Source: an uncultured Opitutia bacterium
GTDB taxonomy: Bacteria > Verrucomicrobiota > Verrucomicrobiia > Opitutales > Coraliomargaritaceae
NCBI GenBank assembly: GCA_937136395.1
Contig: CAKZOI010000083.1
Location: forward strand, 1-64,000
Length of the DNA: 64,000 nucleotides
Direction of reading: 5' to 3'
Position 1 is the stretch's first letter; each line of letters begins with the position of its first letter. The notes under the pieces are model-generated. The model searched no databases, had not been told where the DNA came from, and was given only the letters and a program-made list of their open reading frames with translations. Both the position numbers and the translations under genes were made by a program. Below are positions 4,592 through 19,596 of this stretch, piece after piece.

Positions 4592-5605
4592 ATGAGTGAT
4601 AAGCCTGAAAGTGACGAAAATCTCCCGAACTCTGATGAAGAGCCTTTAGTTGAAGGTGATTTGGGGCGTCGCGACCAAGGAGATCATAGTAACGATGATT
4701 CAAGAAAACAGAACCATGGCGCTGATGCCGAGCAGGATCCGTCAGCAGCTGACTCGGATGAAGACATTTTTAGCGACAGCTATCATGATGATTATGTCGA
4801 TGATTACGAAGCGGAGCTCGAAGCTGAAGCGGCTGCTCGGCGCGAAGCGGGCATGTCCTTCCTCGAGCATTTGGAGGAATTTCGCTGGACGGTGGGGCGT
4901 AGTGTGTTGGCGTTTTTCATCGGTTTAATCGTTGTTGCGTTTTTTATTCAAGACATCGCAGGGTGGTTGAAATATCCGATTTTGACGGCTTACGGTTCCG
5001 TTGAGTTGGTGGATAAGAATTTGATTACGTATCGTCCGATGGGTGTGATCTCGGTCTTTTTCCAAATCGCATTGCTCGGTGGCTTTACACTTTCTATGCC
5101 TTTCGTGCTCTACTTTTTAGCGGCCTTCGTTGCGCCTGGTTTGACGGAGAAAGAGCGTAAAGTTTTAAGACCGGCATGTTTCGCGGCTTTTGTATTGTTC
5201 CTGACGGGGGTGGCGTTCGCTTTCTTTATCATTCTCCCGCTGACTTTGGCGTTTAGCGTGCGATTGAATCAGTATTTTGGTTTCGACCTATTGTGGGCGG
5301 CGTCCGACTACTACAGTATGGTTGTGTGGTTCTCCTTGGCGACCGGAGCTTTCTTTCAATTTCCGCTTTTGATTGTGATATTAGTCTATTTGCAGGTGCT
5401 GCCGGTCTCTAAATTAAAGGCCATCCGCAAGGGAGTCTTTGTGGGGCTCATGATCTTTTCTGCCTTAATGTCGCCTGGAGGTGATTTCATATCCTTGCCG
5501 CTGACGACAGGCTTTATGTATGGACTCTATGAGCTAGCTATTTGGGTGGGGCTTCGAATTGAAAAGAAGAAGCGCGAAGCTGTATTAGCTGAAGTGGACG
5601 ACTAA
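4592..5605 (+). CDS. tatC: Sec-independent protein translocase TatC
   Basis: TatC is the membrane receptor that binds twin-arginine signal peptides for export of folded proteins. After about 87 residues, the sequence [17 protein letters not shown] opens a standard TatC core with roughly six membrane spans. The family motif is visible as [12 protein letters not shown], followed by the [19 protein letters not shown] helix and the [12 protein letters not shown] loop. The extension before the core is unusual: it is very acidic and polar (many Asp, Glu, Ser), has no hydrophobic segment, and makes the protein about 80 residues longer than a typical TatC. The in-membrane position that is usually Glu in FxxFE-P is Gln here. 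No tatA or tatB is in the window. The gene stands upstream of a broken histidine kinase. Confidence 0.95.
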
Positions 5606-15262: not shown

Positions 15263-16189
15263 CTACTTCCGTTCTCTCATCTTCTGATTTGCCTTAGTGA
15301 GGGCTTCTTTGGCGGTGTCGATAATTTCGATGATTTGCGCGGGGAGTTTCTTTCGATGGGTAGTGATGGCATAGAAGCGCTCTTTTACACCGGGTATTTT
15401 TTCAATACGCAGCAGCTTGCGTTGTGCGAGCTCGAATTGGACACCAACTTCGGGGACAAGTGCTAGGCCAGCTCCTGAGAGGGCGAGCATTCGCAAGAGA
15501 CCGGCATCATCGACTTCAGCTTGAACAATCGGGCGGATATCAGAGCGAATCATTAAGGCATCGAAATCGATTCGCGCGGAGGTTTTGGAAGAGGGCAAAA
15601 AAATCGGGATTTCTTTGAGCCATTTCGGGAATTTGACCTTAGGTATTTTAAACGGTGGGCGTCCGACTAAATACACGGGCATCTCGCCGAGTAAGTGCGC
15701 ATCGAGGTGATCGGTATCGAGTTCGCTGAGAGGGAAGTTGGAGAGCACCAAGTCGAGCTGGTGCTTTTTGAGTTTATCCAGTAATTCGGATGATTCGTTT
15801 TCAATCACTTGGACTTTGGTCTCACCTGTCATGGCAAGCGGGCGAACAATTTCAAATTGCAGGACTTTGGAGAAGGAGGGCATGGTGCCGATGCGCACGG
15901 TTTGTGGACCGGGGCTATGATGGCTGGCAAACCAAGCACGAAGCTCGTTGCCAGTTTCGAAAATATCTTCTGCGTATTCAAGCGCGGTTTGTCCGGCTTC
16001 AGTCAATACGAGCTTACGCCCTTTGCGATCGAAGAGTTGAGTGCCAAGCGATTCCTCAAGGTCTTTAAGCTGTGAGCTCAAGGTCGATTGCGAAAGGCCC
16101 AGTGCTTCGGCAGCTTTATTGACGCCGCCTGCTCGCACGATCGTTCGAAAATAGAGCAAGTGGTGGTAGTTGAGCCAAGGTAGTTTCAT
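15263..16189 (-). CDS. LysR-family transcriptional regulator, NhaR-like
   Basis: The 308-residue protein begins with the NhaR-type signature LPWLNYHHLLYFRTIVRAGG and a winged helix (ALGLSQSTLSSQLKDLEESL, FDRKGRKLVLTEAG), followed by a two-lobe effector-binding domain (about 90-300). NhaR-like regulators answer Na+/pH or related envelope stresses in enterobacteria, but the real signal here is unknown. It lies upstream of, and parallel to, the GSDH-like gene (195 bp gap), and diverges from the candidate RNA gene at 16284. Those two are the natural targets to consider. Confidence 0.9.
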   Translation of the reverse strand: MKLPWLNYHHLLYFRTIVRAGGVNKAAEALGLSQSTLSSQLKDLEESLGTQLFDRKGRKLVLTEAGQTALEYAEDIFETGNELRAWFASHHSPGPQTVRIGTMPSFSKVLQFEIVRPLAMTGETKVQVIENESSELLDKLKKHQLDLVLSNFPLSELDTDHLDAHLLGEMPVYLVGRPPFKIPKVKFPKWLKEIPIFLPSSKTSARIDFDALMIRSDIRPIVQAEVDDAGLLRMLALSGAGLALVPEVGVQFELAQRKLLRIEKIPGVKERFYAITTHRKKLPAQIIEIIDTAKEALTKANQKMRERK

Positions 16190-16283
16190 ATATAGATTAA
16201 AGCGAATGATTACTTCTAAACTATCTATTATTCATATTTTTAGTTTTGTGGCAAACTGTGTGCATGAAAAATATTCTAACACA

Positions 16284-16506
16284 CAGTGAAGCGTTTCTCT
16301 TACAGAACAGCCCTCGGGGGAGCCGTTCTAAATGGAGACACTTCTCCAAACTTTACTCAACACGTGGCGTCGCTCAAGTGCGACCACTGCCTGCGGGTAG
16401 GCCGCGGCGAGAGCCTTCACATTAAAGGTCAGTGTTTTGTCCATCCACTGACGTATGTAAGCCAGCTTTGGTAGTTATGAGATGCCAATGCTGGCTTCTT
16501 TTTTTT
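16284..16506 (+). ncRNA. candidate structured non-coding RNA
   Basis: A gene-free gap with clear RNA-like structure. gtgaag (16286-16291) pairs with cttcac (16415-16420), and tctc (16296-16299) pairs with gaga (16409-16412). They enclose four hairpins: gaac..gttc (16305-16328), ggaga/tctcc (16334-16347), gtgg-tcgc/gcga-ccac (16364-16387) and gcct/aggc (16389-16402). A separate 7-bp hairpin gtcagtg/cactgac (16428-16452) and a strong intrinsic terminator (16459-16506) follow. A TATTCT hexamer at 16272-16277 could be its -10 box. Only the terminator and the local palindromes are seen directly; the gene call is inference. I could not match it to tmRNA, SRP RNA, RNase P RNA, 6S RNA or a cobalamin riboswitch. 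Confidence 0.5.
16459..16506 (+). terminator. intrinsic terminator of the candidate RNA
   Basis: aagccagc (16459-16466) pairs with gctggctt (16490-16497), extended inside by ttgg/ccaa after a mismatch, and followed by CTT and six T. It faces away from all annotated genes on the plus strand, which implies a plus-strand transcript upstream. Confidence 0.8.
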
Positions 16507-18723: not shown

Positions 18724-19266
18724 TCAATTTATTGGAGTTTCGCCCTCATCCTTGAGCTGCTTCTTTGCTTTGTTGTCGTCGCGCTTTTTATCGAAGAAGG
18801 CTTTGAGGATCTGATGGTTCAGTTCTTCCATGACGCCGCTGACGGATTCGAACTTGTGGTTACTCTCGGGGAGGTTGCCGAGGTCGGTGGCGCCGCCGAC
18901 GCAGCCCATCTTGGGATCGGGGAGGCCGTAGTAGACTTTACCCATGCGTGCGATGACCATCGCGCCTGAACACATCGGACACGGTTCCTTGGTTACATAG
19001 AGCGCGCATTCGTTTAAGCGCCAGTCGCCGATGAAGCTGGCTGCCTGCGATATTGCCAAAATCTCAGCATGTGCGGTGGGGTCGTTGGTGGAGCGTGATT
19101 GGTTGTGGGCGGATGCGATAATGCGGCCTTGATACTCGATCACTGCGCCAATCGGCACTTCATCCTTTTTCCACGCTTCGATTGCCTCATTGTAGGCGTG
19201 CGTCATATAATAGTCGGCGTCGCGATTGAGTTCAGAAGGGAAGATTTTTTCGAATGGGCAGTTCAT
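18724..19266 (-). CDS. tadA: tRNA-specific adenosine deaminase
   Basis: TadA deaminates A34 to inosine in tRNA-Arg(ACG). The 180-residue protein has the zinc/catalytic motifs TAHAEI (His ligand and catalytic Glu) and PCPMCSGAM (two Cys ligands), plus [18 protein letters not shown] and the DPKMG loop. The C-terminus is a Lys-rich tail. The start at 19266 (MNCPFEKIF) is chosen because any longer reading runs into a heptanucleotide tandem repeat that encodes Pro-Tyr/His-Pro-Ile/Ser repeats. A guanine deaminase or related cytidine-deaminase-fold enzyme is less likely. Confidence 0.9.
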
Positions 19267-19269
19267 GGT

Positions 19270-19419
<150 letters not shown>

Positions 19420-19596
19420 CCCCATGCTTCGTCTTCCAGGCTGCGCAGGACAGGTGCGGGACGTTGGATACGTGATGCGTGATTTGAGATGGGATACGGA
19501 TAATTATACTCGGATCTCGAATCCCGCAACGCGTATCTCAGTGCATACTTGACTTTATCAGCAGAGCCTGTTGTCTCGCCGCTTTCCTAATTATCT

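Follow-up and report, generated by a model that had tools for sequence, protein, structure and literature searches.

In the OxyR-OxyS system a small transcript, OxyS, which counts as a regulatory RNA, lies divergent from a LysR regulator. Small protein genes may stand under regulators of the same type: in Methylomonas sp. DH-1, the LysR-type WatR controls the watS smORFs of about 50 aa (PMC10355033). In Vibrio cholerae, the CRP-controlled dual-function RNA VcdRP combines base-pairing with the 29-aa protein VcdP (PMC8672173). The window analyzed here, a 64,000-nt stretch of DNA from an uncultured Opitutia bacterium, contains at 16284-16506 a region that an earlier note had read as a stand-alone structured RNA of about 220 nt. 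This region is most likely part of the short mRNA of an overlooked, conserved 53-aa basic protein.

The locus resembles watS in that both have unannotated intergenic genes of about 50 aa under a LysR-type regulator, a control shown for watS and proposed here; it differs in that WatS1-4 have a predicted transmembrane segment, whereas the window's protein is basic and hydrophilic (a comparison by description). VcdRP is comparable in its short transcript, its small ORF and the conservation of its 3′ part, whereas its protein has 29 rather than 53 aa, its regulator is CRP rather than a presumed LysR protein, and its base-pairing is shown rather than hypothetical. In contrast to OxyR-OxyS, the window's unit is protein-coding and the regulator beside it is not OxyR. 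The DabAB operons that these genomes carry opposite a paralogous LysR gene have the same 18-nt promoter spacer and an ATG 6–7 nt after the -10, although there a large transporter operon is the target and the LysR proteins are only about 41–43% identical. The gene icd faces a LysR ortholog (59% identity) in the genome G070; that regulator is the closest LysR outside the family and the AAACTATCTATT block is shared, whereas the target is isocitrate dehydrogenase, the leader is several dozen nt long, and no small gene is present there.

A conserved 53-codon coding sequence divergent from a LysR gene

The regulator, the intergenic region and the plus-strand unit comprise the following features (window coordinates):

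15263..16189, minus strand: gene for a 308-aa NhaR-like regulator of the LysR type, divergent from the small gene, with Pfam HTH_1 and LysR_substrate matches
16190..16227, no strand: A+T-rich candidate LysR operator with ATATA-GATTAAA-CGAA and ATCTA blocks, conserved in three genomes, binding presumed
16228..16257, plus strand: putative promoter, -35 TTATTC (16228-16233), 18-nt spacer and -10 CAAACT (16252-16257), from spacing comparison
16264..16425, plus strand: small-protein gene, ATG 16264 to TAA 16425, 53 codons, basic product (pI 12), probably leaderless, identified by translation, homologs and coding-selection tests
16412..16429, plus strand: invariant AGCCTTCACATTAAAGGT block spanning the stop codon, the longest invariant run of the transcript in three genomes
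16428..16452, plus strand: 3′-UTR hairpin GTCAGTG/CACTGAC, with two compensatory pairs in three genomes and one A-C mismatch in G010
16459..16506, plus strand: intrinsic terminator of the small-protein mRNA, with a stem of about 14–15 pairs, a T run, and three pairs with two-sided changes

The ORF list had a threshold of at least 60 aa, and the 53-codon ORF was therefore absent from it. Translation from ATG 16264 gives the protein MKNILTHSEAFLLQNSPRGSRSKWRHFSKLYSTRGVAQVRPLPAGRPRREPSH. Homologous loci were retrieved by BLASTN from two relatives, G001 from the same genus and G010 from another genus of the family, and encode a homologous protein from the aligned ATG with 62% and 54% identity, respectively, to that of the window. 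The BLASTN search, which covered 57 relatives, also returned a weak 23-nt match in G015 that looks like chance in unrelated sequence. The conserved protein core is SKWRxFSKLxxTRGVAQVRPxPA. The G010 gene (L007, about 5068-5226, minus strand) differs in length by one base shortly before the ORF ends, and its frameshifted C-terminus reads GRGESLHIKG.

Codons 1–43 of the ORF frame contain neither a stop nor an indel in the three aligned sequences. The dN/dS values, obtained by a simple counting method with synonymous sites near saturation, were 0.24–0.34 for codons 1–43 and about 0.10–0.12 for core codons 21–43. Third codon positions made up 14 of the 23 variable columns of the core (P about 0.0009), and the first 20 codons alone were diverged, with no third-position bias. 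An RNAcode-like score of substitution type, computed over changed codons, was 130 in the ORF frame; the two remaining plus-strand frames scored -62 and -76, and scores on the reverse strand ranged from -100 to 35. None of 3,000 column shuffles reached the ORF-frame score (z 4.5), and only 43 of 3,000 shuffles were stop-free. All three measures (dN/dS, third positions and coding score) indicate purifying selection at the protein level; comparative evidence thus shows that ORF 16264-16425 is coding and predicts its peptide, and it refutes the earlier statement that the terminator had no protein gene to serve. Every conservation statistic is based on three sequences because the collections searched held only three homologs.

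The three proteins are basic and hydrophilic (pI 11.4–12.0, GRAVY about -1.0). Searches of Pfam, NCBIfam, PHROGs, PADLOC and PDB sequences returned nothing significant, and AlphaFold gave no confident fold for the three sequences (mean pLDDT 60, pTM 0.16). By analogy with the LysR-controlled watS proteins (PMC10355033), the protein would most likely serve as a small modulator of, or adaptor for, some larger target that belongs to the response sensed by the LysR regulator.

A profile search of 44 family genomes found the small protein in three (E below 1e-32), with all others at chance level (matches at E 0.001 or worse were treated as chance). A close LysR ortholog (81–85% identity) occurred in the very same three of the 44 genomes. 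In 373 genomes of the order and 384 of the class, the protein profile found no further homolog, nor did pattern scans of genomic-contig and viral-contig collections. The small gene represents a new gene family of very narrow distribution, whereas the arrangement itself is of an ordinary kind.

LysR regulator, promoter and leaderless start

That both neighbors of the unit lie on the minus strand, as noted earlier, is correct, but it makes lysR divergent from the plus-strand unit, at a distance of 74 bp from the small gene. The LysR orthologs of G001 (85% identity) and G010 (81%) are likewise divergent from the small gene, and the shared intergenic region with its divergent LTTR layout is conserved in 3/3 genomes having the gene, which strengthens the link to LysR that had been proposed. 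This is the classical regulator-target layout, and the LysR protein probably controls the small gene. The best NCBIfam match of the regulator was NhaR at 129.8 bits, below the cut-off of 219, and the OxyR model gave 52 bits against a cut-off of 329.

The operator region and the G070 ortholog facing icd have the AAACTATCTATT block in common; no second copy of the conserved promoter block was found in the genomes. Hexamers resembling -35 and -10 elements lay 18 nt apart in all 11 regulator-target intergenic regions compared, the -35 register having been picked by a shared TATT motif and the -10 as the best among spacers of 16–19. The distance from the -10 to the ATG was 6 nt in all three small genes and 6–7 nt in the antiporter (dabB) genes that lie opposite the paralogous LysR. 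The -10 CAAACT matches the consensus poorly and was absent from the output of the promoter scan, and the putative promoter depends in part on weak hexamers. The small-gene mRNA is likely leaderless or nearly so, because the promoter geometry would put the transcription start at about the ATG. Of the 37 long ORFs that a rough count by first ATG gave for the window, only two had a Shine-Dalgarno-like 4-mer upstream, and since such motifs are rare in the window, their absence from the small gene is no counter-argument. Shine-Dalgarno-scarce Verrucomicrobiota have been reported (PMC10783764).

A paralogous LysR (about 40–43% identity) in the window's and other family genomes is divergent from a proton-antiporter-like membrane gene, and DabA follows this gene in the window's genome. 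At L077 (G000:C73:59500-66500), a dabB-like gene, followed by DabA, lies divergent from the gene of the paralogous NhaR-like LysR, and the LysR/dabB-like layout recurs in other family genomes. The paralog looks like a regulator of inorganic-carbon uptake whose first target gene is leaderless. Outside the family, the nearest ortholog of the LysR (59%) belongs to another family (G070) and is divergent from the isocitrate dehydrogenase gene; because it faces this TCA-enzyme gene, there is a weak lead that the small gene might be linked to central carbon metabolism. A more distant LysR relative (44%) at locus L058 appears to share the icd-facing layout of L056 (G070). Related NhaR-like LysR regulators thus face quite different targets (dabAB, icd and the small gene) with the same promoter geometry.

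3′ hairpins, the invariant block and alternative readings

The local folding described earlier for 16284-16506, including GTGAAG/CTTCAC, was borne out and is strong (MFE -85.6 kcal/mol, z -5.1; none of 200 shuffles was equally stable). The long-range GTGAAG/CTTCAC helix does pair in the window's fold, but GTGAAG has no counterpart in G001 and G010, and the predicted folds of both differ from that of the window. This helix is lost from the MFE structure once upstream bases are included and comes back if transcription starts at 16264. We regard it as a feature of the window's sequence only, because the 5′ part differs freely in the relatives. The GC-rich helices inside the coding region showed no two-sided changes in the three genomes, and the pairing preferred in the window differs from that in both relatives.

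A local hairpin followed by a plus-strand terminator, both already recognized in the earlier note, are present at 16428-16452 and 16459-16506 and covary in the three genomes. Together they have five pairs changed on both sides, a number reached in 6/500 shuffles. The T run of the terminator is weak in G010, and a simple terminator scan missed 16459-16506 because its 9-nt loop exceeds the scan's loop limit of 8. Structure and covariation delimit a structured 3′ UTR of roughly 80 nt, and both 3′ hairpins belong to the small-protein mRNA. Conservation in the relatives thus held for the two 3′ hairpins and failed for the 5′ fold. Within the family, a covariance model built on the 3′ part recovered these three genomes and no others. 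Rfam gave no match in the region up to E 10 and nothing at the gathering threshold, in line with the earlier remark that the region fits no common RNA family.

The region is in all probability a short LysR-controlled protein-coding transcription unit ending in its own hairpins. The LysR regulator, encoded 74 bp away, would bind the shared intergenic region and control the plus-strand promoter, and transcription would start at or beside ATG 16264. The leaderless or near-leaderless mRNA would be translated into the 53-aa strongly basic, non-hydrophobic protein and would end after the covarying 3′-UTR hairpin and the intrinsic terminator. The protein would then most likely act on a larger target within the LysR-sensed response, as an adaptor or modulator. 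As a small conserved regulator-target pair in Opitutales, the locus makes LysR control, leaderless translation and the function of the small protein directly testable.

The alternative that survives best, though we think it unlikely, is a dual-function RNA, in which the 3′ part of the small-protein mRNA (18-nt block, hairpin and terminator) also base-pairs, possibly after processing. It would account for the block AGCCTTCACATTAAAGGT, the longest invariant run, since a run this long arose in only 147 of 20,000 shuffles and G010 reads the block in another frame; the constraint there is for this reason probably on RNA or DNA and not on protein. The covariation of the 3′ hairpins and the precedent of VcdRP, with its 29-aa protein and base-pairing segment (PMC8672173), point the same way. 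Against this, the conservation spans three genomes only, and the block may serve local mRNA folding, termination or decay; pairing of the block with the upstream GC-rich region is possible. A search with 17 of its 18 nt found elsewhere only matches with 2–3 mismatches, and no target was established among these near-matches in the genomes. The role of the block may be to stabilize the 3′ region of the mRNA, or it may lie in base-pairing with a target. That a LysR-controlled transcript joins a leaderless microprotein mRNA to a base-pairing regulator formed by the block and 3′ hairpins, both serving the LysR-sensed response and perhaps central carbon metabolism, is a speculative extension to which we give little weight.

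We consider it very unlikely that the region is a stand-alone non-coding structured RNA with the ORF as a by-product. The strong fold in the window and in the 3′ 141–143 nt of each of the three genomes (z about -4) would fit such an RNA, but the coding signal is strong, the 5′ fold is unconserved, the full G001 transcript folds with no better than z -1.5 (G010, z -3.5), and the GC-rich coding-region helices lack compensatory change. Covariation is confined to the two 3′ hairpins. The stand-alone character claimed earlier therefore holds as far as it concerns a separate plus-strand unit with its own terminator, which is backed by conserved promoter-proximal sequence, body, 3′ hairpin and terminator; the non-coding reading does not hold, since the body is an ORF under protein-level purifying selection. 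An unannotated small-protein gene can evidently pass for a new non-coding RNA when it has a structured GC-rich coding region and its own terminator.

A LysR-divergent regulatory RNA like OxyS beside oxyR would match the divergent layout and the co-occurrence with LysR, but it is highly improbable for a coding unit whose regulator falls below the OxyR cut-off. Equally remote is a type I toxin-like or leader-peptide gene, suggested by a small ORF on a structured transcript, because the protein is hydrophilic rather than a membrane peptide, PADLOC gave no match, and in each of the three genomes the gene after the terminator is encoded on the opposite strand.

Downstream neighborhood

In the window, the small gene is followed downstream by CNNM and then by SOD; in G001 the neighbor is SOD, and in G010 it is an unrelated gene. 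Because this neighbor changes among the three genomes, CNNM lies outside the system. The earlier link to CNNM falls with its absence from this place in both relatives, and the link to cation or envelope stress is unsupported. Farther along the window, 19226-19530 is a short tandem-repeat stretch with repeated IPYP/SRIPH in several frames, which sits in the N-terminal extension of a tRNA-adenosine-deaminase-like gene.
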